From: Prescottella equi
GTDB lineage: Bacteria > Actinomycetota > Actinomycetes > Mycobacteriales > Mycobacteriaceae
NCBI RefSeq assembly: GCF_002094305.1
Contig: NZ_LWTX01000005.1
Coordinates: forward strand, 1 to 64,000
Length of the DNA stretch: 64,000 nt
Reading direction: 5' to 3'
Shown here: in pieces, positions 52,967-60,853 of the stretch
How positions within the stretch are numbered: position 1 is the stretch's first letter
How the letters are laid out: each line of letters opens with the position of its first letter
Notes under the pieces: model-generated
What the model was told of the DNA's origin: nothing
Seen by the model: the letters and a program-made list of their open reading frames with translations, nothing else
Databases searched by the model: none
Made by a program: the position numbers and the translations under genes

Positions 52967-54448
52967 TCACAGGAGGGTGCTCGCACGCTCCGCCACCATC
53001 ACGGCGGTGGCGTGCGGGCCCCGGCCCGGGATCGCGGGGAAGATCGACGTGTCGACGATGAACAGTCCGTCGACACCGTGGACGCGGCACTCCTCGTCCA
53101 CCACCGACGTCGCCGGGTCGGCCCCCATCCGGCAACTGCCCGACAGGTGCAACGACGTGCCGAGGTGATCCGACAACCACTCGTCCGACGTGTCGACGTC
53201 GTCGGGATCGACCAGGGCACGCATCGCACCGGTGCGCATCAGGTCGGCGGCATGGAGCACCGCGGCCCGCAACGCGTCCCGATCCGCTGCCGACTCGAGG
53301 TAGCGGTACGACACCGAGGGCGGGGCGCCCGGATCGGCCGAGACCAGTCTGATCTCACCGCGGCTGTGCGGCTTCATCAGCACCACGCCCAGGCACGGCC
53401 GGCCGATCCCGGATCCGGGTATGAGGTCACCGAACGACGCTGTGTACGGGCGCATTTCGATGCCGTCGGCGTTGAGGGTCACCTGCAGGGCAGGCACACT
53501 CGTGGTCCTGGGGACCGGCACCCGGTAGCTGTACGGCAGCACCACCTCGGGATGGTCACTGAAACCGGACCCCACCGCCGGCAGGTCCGCGACCACCTCG
53601 ATGCCGAGATCTCGGAGGTGTCGGGCGTCGCCGACCCCGGACAGCATCAGCAGGTGCGGGGTCGCTACCGCGCCGGCAGTGAGCACGACCGTCGACGCAC
53701 GGATGGTGTGCAGCCCCTCTTCCGTCGCGATCTCGAGGCCGGCCACGCGGGTGCCGTCGAACAACACCTTGGTGACCGTTGCGCCGGAGCGCACCGTGAG
53801 GTTGGGGCGCCCCAGGTTCGGCAGGAGGTAGGCCGACGCCGGACCCACCCTCACGCCGTCCCGGATGTTGAGCGGCACCGGGCCGACGCCGTGCGAACCG
53901 GGCGCATTCTTGTCCGGATCCTCGGCGTGCCCCGCGTCGCGGGCAACGTCCACGAAGGCGCTGCTCACCGGGTGCCAGCGATCACGAGGTTCCCGATGCA
54001 CCGGGATCGGCCCGTCCGACCCGTGCCACGGTCCGGTGAAGTCCGCGTCGGATTCGATGCGCTTGTAGTACGGCAGCACCTCGTCGAAGGACCACGACCG
54101 CGGCCAGCGATCGAAGTCGTCCGTCTGCGCGCGCACGAAGTACCCACCGTTGACGGCCCCCGAACCACCGAGGACCCGGCCGCGAGCGATCCACCCGGAC
54201 CGTTCACTGGTGAGGTTCACCTGGTACGGCCACACCCAACGACTGTCGGGCCCCACCGGCAGCACCCCGGCGTCGACGAGCTCAGGGGGATATTCCGAGG
54301 GAATCCGATGTCCGGGAGCGGATTCGACGAGCAGCACCCGACGGTTCGGATCCTCACTGAGCCGTCCGGCGAGAACGCTGCCGCACGAGCCGCCCCCGAT
54401 GACGACGACATCGGCGGACTCGGACGGATGCGGCTGGTCCCGACTCAC
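52967..54448 (-). CDS. mftG: Mycofactocin system GMC-family oxidoreductase MftG
   Basis: Start taken as the GTG at 54448, 2 bp after the mftF stop, giving 493 residues; the longer frame upstream only shadows mftF. The FAD dinucleotide loop VVVIGGGSCGSVLAGRLSEDP is at residues 13-33, RGRVLGGSGAVNGGYFVRA is the first GMC signature, and the C-terminus has HLSGSCRMG (active-site histidine region) and VVDTSIFPAIPGRGPHATAVMVAERAS. In mycobacteria MftG is needed to reoxidise mycofactocinol, linking mycofactocin-dependent alcohol oxidation to respiration. It is last in the mftE-F-G unit. Confidence 0.92.
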   Translation of the reverse strand: MSRDQPHPSESADVVVIGGGSCGSVLAGRLSEDPNRRVLLVESAPGHRIPSEYPPELVDAGVLPVGPDSRWVWPYQVNLTSERSGWIARGRVLGGSGAVNGGYFVRAQTDDFDRWPRSWSFDEVLPYYKRIESDADFTGPWHGSDGPIPVHREPRDRWHPVSSAFVDVARDAGHAEDPDKNAPGSHGVGPVPLNIRDGVRVGPASAYLLPNLGRPNLTVRSGATVTKVLFDGTRVAGLEIATEEGLHTIRASTVVLTAGAVATPHLLMLSGVGDARHLRDLGIEVVADLPAVGSGFSDHPEVVLPYSYRVPVPRTTSVPALQVTLNADGIEMRPYTASFGDLIPGSGIGRPCLGVVLMKPHSRGEIRLVSADPGAPPSVSYRYLESAADRDALRAAVLHAADLMRTGAMRALVDPDDVDTSDEWLSDHLGTSLHLSGSCRMGADPATSVVDEECRVHGVDGLFIVDTSIFPAIPGRGPHATAVMVAERASTLL

Positions 54449-54450
54449 CG

Positions 54451-55848
54451 TCAGCTGCCGATGCGGGGAGCGAGTGCTCGCAGGTCCCGGGCACGAATCG
54501 CGCCCTGCCACAGGCCCGCGCCGTACGCGACGTCGTCGAGTCGCTTGAATGCCGTGTGCCGCAGCGGGTCCAAACCACCCGGCTCGCGATGCTTCACCCA
54601 GTCGACGACGCCCTCGGCGACGGCCACCGCCACGGCCAGGCGCCGAATGCGCGGCGAACACAGAACCGCCAGGAACGTCACCGGCCAGTAGTGACGGCAC
54701 ATCGCGGACGCGAGTTGCCATGCGCCACCGGCAAAGCCGCGAGCTGCGAGAATCGCTGCGATCCGTGTCGGCTGGTCGAGCTCACGAAACGTGCGCCGCA
54801 GTCGCGTCGCCGTCACGAGCAGGGTCGCGAGGCTGCCGAGCAGGCCGATACGCGTTCCCGTCGCCGCCGCGAGCACGGCGAACAGCGTCCATTTCGACAT
54901 CGCCAGCGGCGGGACCATGCCGTCGTGCCGTGACGCCAGCGGGGCCGCACCGGTGCCGTAGAAGAGCTTGCGCGAAAACCACTTCCGGAAGGTGACGCGG
55001 TGGTCGTGCGCTACCTGAGACACCGGTTCGTACCGCAATCGCCAACCCGACTCCTGCAGACGCCAGCACAGATCGACGTCCTCCGCGACGTGCATGGTCT
55101 CGTCGAATCCACCGGCCTCCACCAGGACGTCGCGGCGCACGAGCATCGCGGCGCTCGGCACGTACGCCACCGGGCTGCCGGAGCGGACCGCGGCCTCCTT
55201 GCGGCCCAGGTCCAGTGAAGAGCGCGTGTGCTCGTACCGGGCGAGCATCGACCCCTCGGGTTCGAGGGCCACGATGCGCGGCGCCACAAGTGCCACCGCG
55301 GGGTCGCTGAAATGCCCGAGCATCAGTTCGAGCCACCCGGTCTTCGGTACGACGTCCGAGTCCAGGAAGGCGACGAAAGGTGTTTGCGCCGCACGCAGTC
55401 CCGTGTTGCGGGCGGCGGCCGGGCCGCGCGAGGCGTCGTGCCGCAGCAGCGTCACGTGGGCGGTGCAACCGGACAGATCCGGAAGCTCGAGGGGCGTGGC
55501 GGAACCGTCGTCGACGACGATGACGTTCAACCCCCGCAGCGCCGGCACCAGGCGCGCGATGCCGTCGACGTTGTCGCGGATCGGCACGACGACCGTCACG
55601 TCACTCGGCGACGGCGTACTCATGGGGCGCGGGTTCCCGACGCCCGAGTCCAGCAGGCGACGCGCCACCACAGCGGTCTGCGAGTCCACGACCTCGAGGT
55701 AGCCGTCGCCGATCATCTCGGCCGCCGCCGGTGCCAGCTTGAGCATCCGCATCGGTGACCCGCCGATCAGTACCCGGCCTCCCGAATAGGCGCGTACCTG
55801 GGGATCGAGGCGGACCCCGAACCCGTCGGGGAGTCGAGCATTGCGCAT
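54451..55848 (-). CDS. mftF: Mycofactocin biosynthesis glycosyltransferase MftF
   Basis: The 465-residue protein starts with [21 protein letters not shown], the typical MftF opening, and a roughly 75-residue leader domain of PqqD-like appearance. A GT2 fold follows ([49 protein letters not shown] with the DxD metal site, and [13 protein letters not shown] as the base region). Hydrophobic C-terminal helices ([26 protein letters not shown]) suggest membrane association. MftF adds the oligoglucose chain to mycofactocin. mftE lies 73 bp upstream and mftG 2 bp downstream. Confidence 0.93.
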
Positions 55849-55921: not shown

Positions 55922-56614
55922 TCACACCAGCCTCCCGTCGGGCCGTGGCGCCCAGTTCTCGATCGCCTTTCCGGCCCGGCGAACGAGGTCTGCGAACAGT
56001 CGTTCCCCCTCCTCTGCGGTGGCCCCGGTGGGATCGCCGAGGATGCCGTTGGGGGTCGCCGCGAGCATGCCACCCGACCGCAGTTGCGGCATGAGGTCCG
56101 CGATGGGCGCGGTGTTGCCGGGCTCGGCTCGGTCCATCGCCACGTCAGCGGGTGAAAGATGCAGCAGCATGGATGTTTCGGTGTGTCCGGCGTGCGCGTC
56201 GGCACCCGGTACCGCACACGGCAGCCAGGCCGCGTCGCGGCCCTCGTAGCGAAGGAGTTCGACGGCCTTCACCACCGCCGGGCCGTTCCCGCCGTGGCCG
56301 TTGACGAACACGACACGCCGGGCCCACCGACACGCCGAGCGGCCGAACTCGACGAGCAGCGCCTCGAGCGCCTCGGTGCCGATCGAGATGGTCCCGGCGA
56401 AGCCCTCGTGCTCGCCACTCGCCCCGTACGTGATGGCGGGCGCCGTCACGACGCCGGTGAGCGCGCCGGCGACAGCGCCGGTGAGAGCGGTCGCGATGCG
56501 TGTGTCGGTGTCCAGCGGCAGGTGCGGGCCGTGCTGCTCGAAAGAGCCGACCGGGACCGCGACGGTGAGGTCGTCGCGCGGCACATCGGGCCACGGGATG
56601 CGGGCGAGGTCCAT
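55922..56614 (-). CDS. mftE: Mycofactocin precursor peptidase MftE (creatininase family)
   Basis: From the ATG at 56614 the protein has 230 residues, the usual MftE size. Metal ligands of the creatininase fold are visible: VGSFEQHGPHLPLDTDT (Glu, His, Asp) near residue 25, FVNGHGGNGPAV near 105, and GADAHAGHTETSMLLHLSP near 140. MftE releases the C-terminal Val-Tyr-derived dipeptide from modified MftA so that MftD can act. In the classic cluster mftE follows mftD directly; here seven kb and five genes separate them, and a DUF1707 gene lies 29 bp upstream. Confidence 0.92.
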   Translation of the reverse strand: MDLARIPWPDVPRDDLTVAVPVGSFEQHGPHLPLDTDTRIATALTGAVAGALTGVVTAPAITYGASGEHEGFAGTISIGTEALEALLVEFGRSACRWARRVVFVNGHGGNGPAVVKAVELLRYEGRDAAWLPCAVPGADAHAGHTETSMLLHLSPADVAMDRAEPGNTAPIADLMPQLRSGGMLAATPNGILGDPTGATAEEGERLFADLVRRAGKAIENWAPRPDGRLV

Positions 56615-56643
56615 CGGTCGATGGTAGAGCGGGCTCCCGCCGC

Positions 56644-57495
56644 TCACGGGCCCTGCACCTCGACGACCTCGCCGGCAAATGTCGCCGTCACGTTCCCCTT
56701 GGCGACGTCGGCGTCCACGACGTAGACCGTGACCCGCGGCTCGGCGACACCCGACGGCGAGCGAAGGGCGCGGATGGCGACCCGATCGACGTGGCCGCTG
56801 GGCAGACCCACGAGGCCGGTAGCGCGCCCGACCAGATCGACGATGGACTCGCTGTCGAGTAGCGCGAGGTCGACCGTATCTTGGTCCTCGTCCCGCATCG
56901 TGGGCGGCGTCCACGGCTCGAATCCGGCAGCGCCCGTGAACATCCACCGCTGCATCCGGGTCGGCTGCCGGGGGATCATCTTCGCAACCACCGCGTCATC
57001 GCTGTACAGATCGACATCGTCGGCGACCAGATTGCCGAACTTCGACTCGAAGCGGCGCACGAACTCGCGCATGCCGTCGGCGGTGAACAGAGCGATCGAC
57101 TCGGCCGAGTGGTCGTCGGCGCTCGATTCGGAGGAGGCGGCAGGGCCATTGGAGCCCCCGGCGGACATCACCTGGACCAGGCCGACCACGATCAACGCCA
57201 CGACGACCACCGCAGCGAGGACCACAAGGAGGTGGCGCGACCGCGGCGAGCCGGAGTCGGATTCAGTCTCGGACTCACCGCCGGTCCCGTCACCGACAAG
57301 ATGATCGGGTACCTGCAAGTCCTTGGTCAGCGCCTGAAGAGCGCCGAGCGTCGTCGCGCGCATCGCTGCCGCAGTACGGGACTCGTGCTCTTCGACACCC
57401 AGCTGACCGTCCGCATATGCGGCGTCGAGCAGGCTGCACGTCTGCGCGCGATCGATGTCGCGCGCCCGGGTCTTGTCAGATCGAGGGTCCGGCAC
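56644..57495 (-). CDS. DUF1707 membrane protein inserted upstream of mftE
   Basis: The 283-residue protein has an N-terminal DUF1707 domain (RARDIDRAQTCSLLDAAYADGQLGVEEHESRTAAAMRATTLGALQALTKDLQ, about 10-62), one membrane span (HLLVVLAAVVVVALIVVGLVQVM, about 88-110), a Ser/Gly linker and an extracytoplasmic region rich in acidic residues. DUF1707 is a common actinobacterial fold at the start of membrane or surface proteins, function unknown. The outside half (ADGMREFVRRFESKFGN onward, VTVYVVDADVAKGNVTATFAG) looks like a lipoprotein-type beta domain. It shares a 70-bp divergent region with the HNH gene and probably leads the transcript into mftE-F-G. Confidence 0.8.
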   Translation of the reverse strand: MPDPRSDKTRARDIDRAQTCSLLDAAYADGQLGVEEHESRTAAAMRATTLGALQALTKDLQVPDHLVGDGTGGESETESDSGSPRSRHLLVVLAAVVVVALIVVGLVQVMSAGGSNGPAASSESSADDHSAESIALFTADGMREFVRRFESKFGNLVADDVDLYSDDAVVAKMIPRQPTRMQRWMFTGAAGFEPWTPPTMRDEDQDTVDLALLDSESIVDLVGRATGLVGLPSGHVDRVAIRALRSPSGVAEPRVTVYVVDADVAKGNVTATFAGEVVEVQGP

Positions 57496-57535
57496 GCCCA
57501 GACCCTACTGCGTGGCGTACTCGATACCCATTGAC

Positions 57536-57551
57536 TCGAACATATATTCGA
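57536..57551. promoter_or_regulatory. LexA/SOS box upstream of the DUF222-HNH gene
   Basis: TCGAACATATATTCGA matches the actinobacterial SOS box TCGAAC-N4-GTTCGA at all fixed bases but one. It lies 14 nt before the ATG at 57566 and 40 nt before the divergent DUF1707 start. 13E12-family genes in M. tuberculosis are known to carry LexA boxes and respond to DNA damage. Confidence 0.7.
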
Positions 57552-57565
57552 ACTAGGCTCGGGTC

Positions 57566-58867
57566 ATGAATCCGGGGGGACTCAACAATTCGGGCATCGC
57601 AGTCGCTTCGCTGCGGCCTGGCGACGTGGGATCGCTCGCCGAAGCGGCCCTTGTGCAGGGCATGGCCGACGTTTGCCGTGAGATCGAACGGCTCCAAGCG
57701 TTGCGGGTAGCGATGGCCGCCGAAGTCGATGCGCGCGCAGTCTCGTTCGACACCCTCGGCTTCCGAAGTGTCAAGCAGTGGTTGGCCGCGAACTCACTGT
57801 TGGAAGTGCCGGCCGCGGCACGGATCCTCGCATTGGGCCGGATGCTCGCCCGGCAGCCCGAGATCGCCGACGCCTTCAACGCCGGAGATATTTCGGCCGA
57901 GCATGCGGCGTTGATCGGGAAGTTCTGCGAAACCACACCTCGTGGCATGCCCGTGGAAGCGCTAAATTCGTGCCGGAAGGTGTTGCTGGACGCCGCGTCC
58001 GGTCCCGCCGCAACCACCACGACCGTCCGCACGTGCATCTCCCGGTTGGAGCGGATCTTCGAATCCGACGAACTCCCACCCAGCGAAGACACCGAACGCA
58101 ACGAATTCCACGCCTCGAAAACCCTGAACGGACGGGTCTCGGTCAAGGGTGACCTCGACGCCGTCACCGGCGAGATGCTCCTGACCGCACTGTCCGCGCT
58201 GACCAAACCGAGGAATCCGGTCGACGACCCCGCCGAGAAACTCACCCCCGCACGGCAGCGGGCGGACGCGTTCGCCGAGATCCTGCGCCGCTACCTCGAC
58301 TCCGGCGACGCCCCGATCGAGGGCGGCGAGCGGCCACACCTGTCACTCCATGTGAACGCCAGCGACCTCGCCCGCAGCGAGTCGGCTCACGAGTGGACGC
58401 ACACCGATGAAGGGTCGGACCTGTTCGGCGACAAAGACATCGCACGCATGCCCCACACCGGACCGCTGTCTATCGCGACCGCTCGCCGGATCGCCTGCGA
58501 CTGTCACCTCACCGCCATCGTCATGGACGACGACGTCCCCCTGAATCTGGGGCGAACCAGCCGGACCGTGTCGAAGAAACAGCGCCGCGCCCTGATCGCC
58601 CGCGACCACGGCTGCGCCTTCCCCGGCTGCGGCACACCACCCGCCCACTGCGAAGGCCACCACGTAAAGCATTGGGCAGACGGCGGCCCCACCGACCTCG
58701 ACAACCTCGTCCTACTCTGCCGCTACCACCACACCTTGCTGCACCACTCCCACTGGGACGTGAAAATCGGCGCCGACCGGCACCCGTGGTTCACCCCACC
58801 CAGCACCGTCGACCCCTACAAGAAACCCATCCCAGCCAATAGGCGGGCAGGACCACACGCAGCGTAG
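57566..58867 (+). CDS. DUF222 / HNH endonuclease (13E12 repeat family)
   Basis: The 433-residue protein appears intact. Residues about 30-330 form the helical DUF222 region (ERLQALRVAMAAEVDARAVSFDTLGFRSVKQWLA, RQPEIADAFNAGDISAEHAALIG, TPARQRADAFAEILRRYLDSG). The C-terminus is an HNH nuclease with zinc cysteines: RDHGCAFPGCGTPPAHCEGHHVKHWADGGPTDLDNLVLLCRYHHTLLH, with HH, N and the second HH in place. These genes are multicopy in mycobacteria and rhodococci and behave like selfish or repeat elements. It is on the opposite strand to the mft genes it interrupts, behind an SOS box, and its DNA looks less GC-rich than its neighbours. Substrate and biological role unknown. Confidence 0.9.
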   Translation: MNPGGLNNSGIAVASLRPGDVGSLAEAALVQGMADVCREIERLQALRVAMAAEVDARAVSFDTLGFRSVKQWLAANSLLEVPAAARILALGRMLARQPEIADAFNAGDISAEHAALIGKFCETTPRGMPVEALNSCRKVLLDAASGPAATTTTVRTCISRLERIFESDELPPSEDTERNEFHASKTLNGRVSVKGDLDAVTGEMLLTALSALTKPRNPVDDPAEKLTPARQRADAFAEILRRYLDSGDAPIEGGERPHLSLHVNASDLARSESAHEWTHTDEGSDLFGDKDIARMPHTGPLSIATARRIACDCHLTAIVMDDDVPLNLGRTSRTVSKKQRRALIARDHGCAFPGCGTPPAHCEGHHVKHWADGGPTDLDNLVLLCRYHHTLLHHSHWDVKIGADRHPWFTPPSTVDPYKKPIPANRRAGPHAA

Positions 58868-58894: not shown

Positions 58895-60853
58895 CTACAG
58901 CGCCGCCGCCACCCGATGCCCCTCGATCACCGCGGCATGCGAGCGGCGCGGCGTCACGGCGTCACCGATCCGATACACCTCGAACGGAGTGGAGCCACTG
59001 TGCGTCAATACTTTCCACAACTCGTCACAGGGTTCCTGGTGACTCGCGCACACCAGCCAGTCGAACACCTCGGTCAGAGTGACACCGGAGAGGTGGTTCT
59101 CCAGGGTGACCCGCAGACGGCCCGCCGCATCGGCGACACCGCTCACCGCCACATCGGTCCACTGCTCGATGTCCGCACGGTGCGCTCGCTGCTGCCATCG
59201 CTCCATGTCGAGTGTGACACCCAGGTCCTGTCCGACGATCATTCCTGGCGTACAGATCGTCACGGCACAACCGCGAGCAGCCAACGTCTCCGCCACGGAC
59301 GGCCCCTGATGAAAACCCAGCTCGTCCACCACGAGAACCCGCCCGGCCGGGGCCACACTTTCGTCCAGCACGCCCCGGGCATGGACCACACGAGCACACT
59401 CCCCCGCCCACCACGGGCGAACCGGACGCGCCCCCGTCGCGACCACCACCACGTCCGGGGCCAGCGCCCGCAACTGCTCCGCGCTCATCTCGACACCGGT
59501 CTCGATCCGCACCCCGCGACGCACGCATTCACCCTCGAGATTCCGTACGAGATCACCCAGCTCGCCGCGCCCCGACGCAGACGACGCGACCCGGATCTGA
59601 CCACCCACGACAGGCGAGCGTTCGAACAGTGTCACCCGATGCCCGCGCTCAGCCGCGGTCGCCGCCGCCGACAGCCCCGCCGGCCCGCCCCCGACCACCA
59701 CCACCCGTCTGCCGGGCACCCGAGGATCGGGCAGCGGAACCGATTCCTTTCCGGCACGGGGATTCTCGACGCAACCGAGCCAACGACCCAGCCCCATGCG
59801 TCCCACACACTCCTGATTGCACGACAGGCAGGTGCGGATCTCGTCCGCGGCGCCGCGCAGCGCCTTCGTCGCGAAATCGGGGTCGGCGATCTGCCCGCGA
59901 GTGATACCGACGAGATCGCACCGCCCGTCGGTGAGCGCGCGTTCGGCCTCGGCCGGTTCTTTCAGCCGGCCCACGCCGATCACCGGCAGCGCCACCGCTG
60001 CCCGAATCGCCTCCGAGATGTGCAGCGCGTAGCCGCGGGGAGCCGCCATGGACGGCTCCACCAGGTGCAGCGTCTCGGTCGCCACGCCCATCGTGGTGTT
60101 GATGTAGTCGACGACGCCCGAGGCCTCCACGATCCGGGCCACCGCGACGGCGTCGTCGAGCACGATCCCGCCGGGCACCTGCTCGTCGCCCGAAAGACGC
60201 ACACCGAGCACCAGATTCGGACCGATCGCGGCTCGGACGGCGGCAATCACCTCGACGAGGAACCGGGCGCGGTTCTCGAGGGATCCGCCGTAACGATCGC
60301 TCCGCCGGTTCGTGGCCGAGGACAGGAACCCCCGGATGAGCGACGACTGCGAGCCCTGCAGTTCGACGCCGTCGAATCCCCCGTCGCGGCAACGGGCGGC
60401 GACGACGGCGTAGGCGGCCACCAGCTCCGCGATCTCCGCCGCGTCGACCGCCTTGGGCACCTCCCGGAACAAGGGATCCGGAACGGGGCTCGGCGCCCAC
60501 AGCGGTCGGCGCGAATACATGCCCGACCCCTGCCCGCCGTTGTGGTTGAGCTGCGCGAGGATCACCGCGCCGTGACCGTGCACAGCGTCGGTGATCGCCC
60601 GGTACCCGTCCACCACCTCCGGGCGATAGCCGTGAATCACTTTCTCGTACGGCCAGTCCGACGGATGGACACACTGTTCCTCGGTGATGATCATCCCCGC
60701 TCCGCCGGCGGCACGGGCCGCGTAGTACGCGGCGTGCTGTTCGGTGGGCAGACCCCCGTGCGCGTAGTTCGTCAGGTGCGCGGTGAACACGACCCGATTA
60801 CGCAGGGTCCGCCCGCCGAGGCGAAGCGGGGACGACAACCGTGGATACAGCAT
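58895..60853 (-). CDS. Mycofactocin-system FadH/OYE-family oxidoreductase 1
   Basis: The 652 residues follow the 2,4-dienoyl-CoA reductase layout. First comes an OYE-type FMN barrel (LRNRVVFTAHLTNYAHGGLPTEQHAAYY; LQGSQSSLIRGFLSSATNRRSDRYGGSLENR). A 4Fe-4S site follows, with cysteines in CLSCNQECVGRMGLGRWLGC, and then an FAD/NAD domain (VVVVGGGPAGLSAAATAAERGH, VVVVATGARPVRP). Family TIGR03996 is confined to mycofactocin genomes; its substrate is unknown. The gene starts 12 bp after the SDR stop and ends 28 bp from the convergent HNH gene. A role in reducing enones or in shuttling electrons with mycofactocin is inference. Confidence 0.9.
   Translation of the reverse strand: MLYPRLSSPLRLGGRTLRNRVVFTAHLTNYAHGGLPTEQHAAYYAARAAGGAGMIITEEQCVHPSDWPYEKVIHGYRPEVVDGYRAITDAVHGHGAVILAQLNHNGGQGSGMYSRRPLWAPSPVPDPLFREVPKAVDAAEIAELVAAYAVVAARCRDGGFDGVELQGSQSSLIRGFLSSATNRRSDRYGGSLENRARFLVEVIAAVRAAIGPNLVLGVRLSGDEQVPGGIVLDDAVAVARIVEASGVVDYINTTMGVATETLHLVEPSMAAPRGYALHISEAIRAAVALPVIGVGRLKEPAEAERALTDGRCDLVGITRGQIADPDFATKALRGAADEIRTCLSCNQECVGRMGLGRWLGCVENPRAGKESVPLPDPRVPGRRVVVVGGGPAGLSAAATAAERGHRVTLFERSPVVGGQIRVASSASGRGELGDLVRNLEGECVRRGVRIETGVEMSAEQLRALAPDVVVVATGARPVRPWWAGECARVVHARGVLDESVAPAGRVLVVDELGFHQGPSVAETLAARGCAVTICTPGMIVGQDLGVTLDMERWQQRAHRADIEQWTDVAVSGVADAAGRLRVTLENHLSGVTLTEVFDWLVCASHQEPCDELWKVLTHSGSTPFEVYRIGDAVTPRRSHAAVIEGHRVAAAL

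Follow-up and report, generated by a model that had tools for sequence, protein, structure and literature searches.

The window, by which we denote the entire 64 kb stretch of Prescottella equi DNA under analysis, contains an open reading frame encoding a putative nuclease in which a DUF222 domain (E-value 3.9e-26) precedes an HNH domain (E-value 1.4e-7), both scoring above the Pfam cut-offs (Table 1). The gene lies in a mycofactocin (mft) locus with the order OYE2, nuclease, DUF1707 gene, mftE, mftF and mftG. MftE, MftF, MftG, OYE1, OYE2 and a mycofactocin-dependent SDR all pass their NCBIfam cut-offs, which for mft proteins are set at the equivalog level. The nuclease gene is encoded on the strand opposite to the mftE, mftF and mftG genes, and its stop codon is separated by 27 bp from that of OYE2. 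Strand assignments and NCBIfam matches hence agree with a preliminary description of this DNA, which had placed the nuclease within a mycofactocin locus and opposed to the mft genes. The same description reported a 70-bp divergent region between the start codons of the nuclease and of the DUF1707 gene, and this region is present as described. Downstream of the latter gene, and in the same direction, mftE starts approximately 30 bp past the DUF1707 stop codon.

Table 1. Features of the nuclease cassette and of the adjoining mycofactocin genes in the window.
Feature	Position	Strand	Basis or remark
mftG	52967..54415	-	TIGR03970 above cut-off; start approximate, taken from the profile match
mftF	54451..55848	-	TIGR03965 above cut-off
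mftE	55922..56614	-	TIGR03964 above cut-off
mftE -10 element TACCAT	56621..56626	-	6 nt before the ATG at 56614
DUF1707-domain gene, 283 aa	56644..57495	-	GTG start at 57495
DUF1707 probable -10 element TAGGGT	57502..57507	-	6 nt before the GTG
Nuclease promoter -35 hexamer TTGACT	57531..57536	+	Common to most copies
LexA (SOS) box TCGAACATATATTCGA, 11/12 consensus positions	57536..57551	+	Consensus match; same position in 47/47 copies
Nuclease promoter -10 hexamer TAGGCT	57554..57559	+	17 nt past the -35 hexamer, 6 nt before the ATG
DUF222/HNH nuclease gene, 433 aa	57566..58867	+	Open reading frame and domain profiles
HNH domain, conserved Cys pairs and H-N-H residues present	58622..58747	+	Profile and alignment
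Mycofactocin OYE2	58895..60853	-	TIGR03997 above cut-off; convergent with the nuclease gene

The Cys and His residues of the HNH domain are invariant in 16 relatives of the window nuclease. The predicted structure of the protein was poor (mean pLDDT 56, pTM 0.38), with confidence restricted to its N-terminal helical part, and a fold search with this model returned no significant match. Matches in a sequence search of solved structures were limited to the HNH parts of IscB. PADLOC did not assign the nuclease to any defence family, and its one weak, partial match on the DUF1707 protein was given no weight as evidence.

The region upstream of the nuclease gene presents a TTGACT-17-TAGGCT-6-ATG layout, a predicted leaderless arrangement in which the spacer between the -35 and -10 hexamers is filled by a LexA box. 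The box deviates at one of 12 positions from TCGAAC-N4-GTTCGA, the SOS consensus cited for mycobacteria (PMC4181829), and ends 14 nt before the nuclease start codon. The near-perfect box that the preliminary description had noted at this distance (57536-57551) is thus borne out.

Thirteen DUF222 genes were identified in this genome. Nine of these, the window copy included, are near-identical full copies of the nuclease that all begin with MNPGG; the other eight show 84-94% identity to it within BLAST segments and map to unrelated places, and further copies are partial or diverged. The 5' edge common to the nine full copies is abrupt and falls near CATTGACTCGAAC; the box is embedded in the spacer of a TTGACT-17 nt-TAnnnT promoter, with the ATG 6 nt past the -10 element. 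When the window's genome was analyzed together with eight others of the genus (Prescottella / Rhodococcus equi group), each of the 47 copies whose 5' end is intact proved to carry a box that deviates from the consensus at no more than one position and starts at -30 from the ATG, a few of the offsets being read by eye where the scripted start was 1-15 nt off. Relatives from R. jostii and Rhodococcus metagenome-assembled genomes (MAGs), with 56-60% identity, also carry the box, which in one MAG relative (L170) is recognized only if two mismatches are allowed. Two relatives from gammaproteobacterial MAGs are devoid of it.

A genome-wide search identified ten exact boxes, at least eight of which belong to copies of the nuclease cassette: six lie before intact copies, and one each before a decayed copy and a copy truncated at a contig end. 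Of the remaining two, one precedes a gene for a DnaE2-like polymerase and the other has no assigned context, the last four of these ten contexts having been assigned by eye from translations. Because the window gene is one of nine near-identical copies, and because the box is kept in all 47 copies, the box is not specific to the mft locus.

The genome encodes a lexA gene preceded by three SOS-like boxes, each with one or two mismatches. A LexA-type DNA-binding domain above the Pfam cut-off is also present in a further protein, encoded at L207 (G000:C13:28880-29053), which lacks a close SOS box upstream. In M. tuberculosis, members of the 13E12 family are described as part of the LexA regulon in two reports (PMC4181829, PMC5005354), and mitomycin C has been found to induce five putative HNH endonucleases by a RecA-dependent route (PMC8151990). 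The window gene presents the traits of both the LexA regulon and the 13E12/DUF222-HNH family: an SOS box overlapping its promoter in a genome whose lexA is itself preceded by boxes, and a DUF222 domain followed by HNH in a dispersed multicopy repeat. Its domain composition and repeat structure hence identify the nuclease cassette as a member of this already known family. Given the spacer box in 47 of 47 copies, a lexA gene with boxes of its own and the LexA control published for 13E12 relatives in M. tuberculosis, LexA repression of the window nuclease appears very likely, and the preliminary proposal that this gene responds to DNA damage through the SOS system is well supported.

We infer LexA binding, induction, nuclease activity and the transcription starts at this locus from sequence. 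The reading that we favor, and hold with considerable confidence, is that the window contains one copy of a dispersed, self-regulated 13E12/DUF222-HNH cassette, composed of the nuclease gene and a leaderless promoter whose spacer holds a LexA box, next to mftE and DUF1707 genes that would be served by their own promoters. LexA bound to the spacer would block RNA polymerase at the nuclease promoter, and its cleavage upon DNA damage would lead to the joint transcription of all cassette copies. Transcription of mftE would proceed from its own leaderless promoter and that of the DUF1707 gene from a separate one, neither changing much upon SOS induction. The single mismatch in the box of the window copy stands against this explanation.

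An effect of SOS induction on the mycofactocin genes could also be exerted from the opposite side of the cassette. The stop codons of the nuclease and OYE2 genes are closely opposed, and hairpins following several other copies fold better than shuffled sequences (z between -2.3 and -3.9), whereas mft-site copies present no better-than-shuffle hairpin (z of -0.7 and -0.85). Read-through of the window copy after induction could hence yield antisense RNA over OYE2, and SOS induction would then lower expression of OYE2, and perhaps of the genes preceding it, by convergent antisense transcription. Factor-dependent termination is, however, invisible in sequence, and we regard this effect as rather unlikely.

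The preliminary description had further proposed that DNA damage could raise not only the nuclease but also mftE-F-G, through a single box repressing transcription in both directions. The box does lie between two start codons only 70 bp apart, and the proximity and shared direction of the DUF1707 and mftE genes mean that DUF1707 transcripts could run into mftE. Relative to the DUF1707 start, the box is located upstream of the probable -10 element, at about -41 to -56, a position from which LexA could reduce the activity of this promoter. The mftE gene, however, has a candidate promoter of its own. Of the 14 same-genus genomes, 12 have a TAnnAT element at the same 6-nt spacing from the mftE start codon, as do two other genera. 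The sequence beyond this -10 element is not conserved, and the DNA that varies within the genus starts just past it. In the two exceptions, mftE overlaps an upstream gene whose translation appears MarR-like. In the window, this element (56626-56621) falls inside 56615-57495, the interval in which a separate mftE promoter had been named beforehand as evidence against the proposal.

The DUF1707 gene likewise has a probable -10 element between the box and its start codon. Four DUF1707 homologues at other loci present TAGGAT at the same spacing, which indicates that this promoter came with the gene, and are devoid of such a box in the 60 nt shown. Among the genomes compared, the DUF1707 gene adjoins mftE only in that of the window, and the survey of mft loci suggested in the preliminary description did not detect the box-DUF1707-mftE arrangement in any of 13 further genomes of the genus. 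Several adjacent DUF1707-type genes are clustered at G000:C3:340860-344056 and at similar places in relatives, and the gene next to mftE, which shares 59% identity with its closest relatives, may be a translocated member. When named genomes were searched with the DUF1707 protein, no relatives were retrieved. A published precedent for one box between divergent genes is whiB2/fbiA, where fbiA is described as unresponsive (PMC4181829), and an incomplete search of the literature yielded no mention of mycofactocin together with LexA. The sequence evidence thus points away from a dependence of mftE on the promoter region holding the box. Since mftE has its own conserved -10 element, an SOS link to mycofactocin through the box is not supported, and induction of both the nuclease and DUF1707-mftE-F-G appears improbable.

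The weakest alternative holds that the resemblance to a LexA box arose by chance and that the nuclease lies outside LexA control. It draws on the window scan, where two matches deviating at no more than one position, compared with a chance expectation of 0.33 in 64 kb, make for weak enrichment. This alternative can be practically dismissed, given that the box position is fixed in 47 of 47 copies while its four central bases vary, and that the ten exact genomic sites compare with none for a reversed-pattern control. Considered alone, the match in the window provides modest evidence for a LexA box. The second one-mismatch site, TCGAACTCGGGTTCGG at 2163-2178, is probably a chance occurrence.

The variable state of the same site in related genomes speaks for the reading of the window gene as one copy of a dispersed, self-regulated cassette. 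At the mft site, the nuclease looks intact in one genome (G012) and is intact or nearly so in another (G007), contains an internal stop in a third (G009), is broken or partial in two (G002, G010) and persists as a remnant in two more (G008, G013), with no trace in the other six. The distance between OYE2 and mftE is about 120 bp in G006 and 76 bp in G035, which belongs to another genus. Five genomes without any trace of the cassette carry about 1-7 kb of other DNA at this position, and because such DNA is present even without a cassette, the OYE2-mftE junction represents an insertion hotspot independently of the cassette. Examples of junctions with 1-7 kb of unrelated DNA and no cassette trace are provided by L046, L047, L048 and L054 (L045-L056; L031-type). 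The notion that the nuclease is required for the entry of extra DNA is weakened by the five cassette-free mft junctions, although at another cassette site (site D) extra DNA is mostly limited to cassette-bearing genomes.

The comparison of copies occupying the same site in different species outlined a marked asymmetry between the two sides of the cassette. With contiguity defined as a gap of at most 150 bp in both copies, the 3' flank was contiguous in 19 of 31 such pairs and the 5' flank in two; these pairs share sites and are not independent, with 3'-only continuity extending to about seven sites. The first gene on the 3' side, as called by a simple script, is convergent with the nuclease in 34 of 40 copies. 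A quick tree of the copies, with some decayed rows included, groups them by genome (10 changes, against a minimum of 8) and not by site (28 changes), which indicates that same-site copies in different species were not simply inherited. On the basis of this tree, copies appear to evolve in concert within each genome, implying gene conversion or repeated insertion. Among genomes lacking the cassette at the site in question, the core flanks are separated by no more than about 40 bp in seven of nine at site D and in two of seven at site A, in a comparison complicated by extra DNA beside the cassette. Support for a shuffling of variable DNA between cassette sites is scattered, the gene content of this DNA having been skimmed with a simple ORF script.

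Several features of the flanks were observed in addition. A short 5' flank resembling GAAAGTCTGACGCACGAGA recurs beside cassettes at unrelated sites (L003, L007, L074, L079, L080, L088, L093, L095 and L100), and in G008 near-identical 700-bp 5' flanks are found at three places (L069, L109 and L110). At L150, a nearby open reading frame appears transposase-like by eye, raising the possibility of an insertion sequence beside the cassette.

The fixed 3' end, the variable 5' side, the apparently empty sites and the concerted evolution of the copies suggest SOS-regulated mobile or homing-like cassettes. In a broader and still tentative model, the DUF222/HNH genes of the genus would be homing-like cassettes triggered by the SOS response, with new DNA joined on the 5' side while the 3' end stays fixed close to a core-gene stop codon, so that some ten dispersed nucleases, switched on by DNA damage, would drive homogenization and gene turnover at fixed sites, one of them in the mft locus.

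Like the M. tuberculosis REP13E12 family (for example Rv0515, Rv1702c, Rv3074 and Rv3776), these cassettes encode a DUF222 and HNH protein in dispersed multiple copies. Membership in the LexA regulon there is paralleled here by the putative LexA box in the spacer, and the gene conversion reported among REP13E12 copies (PMC13061034) by that implied by the copy tree. The 13E12 family has also been attributed characteristics of mobile elements in a report citing earlier work (PMC5005354). The cassettes described here differ in being near-identical, with the box always at -30 in the promoter spacer and, as far as the flanks compared within this genus go, in having the 3' end against a core gene. 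The consensus and the boxes preceding lexA and the DnaE2-like gene match the mycobacterial SOS regulon, but here most of the exact boxes belong to one nuclease family. The mycofactocin locus itself differs in that OYE2 and mftE are separated by the cassette and the DUF1707 gene. Homing HNH endonucleases share with the cassettes an HNH gene, homogenized copies and, apparently, filled and precisely empty sites in related species, yet the cassettes occupy many sites per genome and lie outside introns and inteins. The site pattern of the cassettes may be a new detail, as judged from an incomplete search of the literature.

Coupling of a redox cofactor to the SOS response would have been a novelty, but the promoter evidence speaks against it. 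A multicopy nuclease family accounts for most of the perfect LexA sites in this genome. A recognizable leaderless mftE promoter in the genus makes part of mft regulation amenable to testing, and the site pattern of the cassettes makes a mobile or homing role directly testable.
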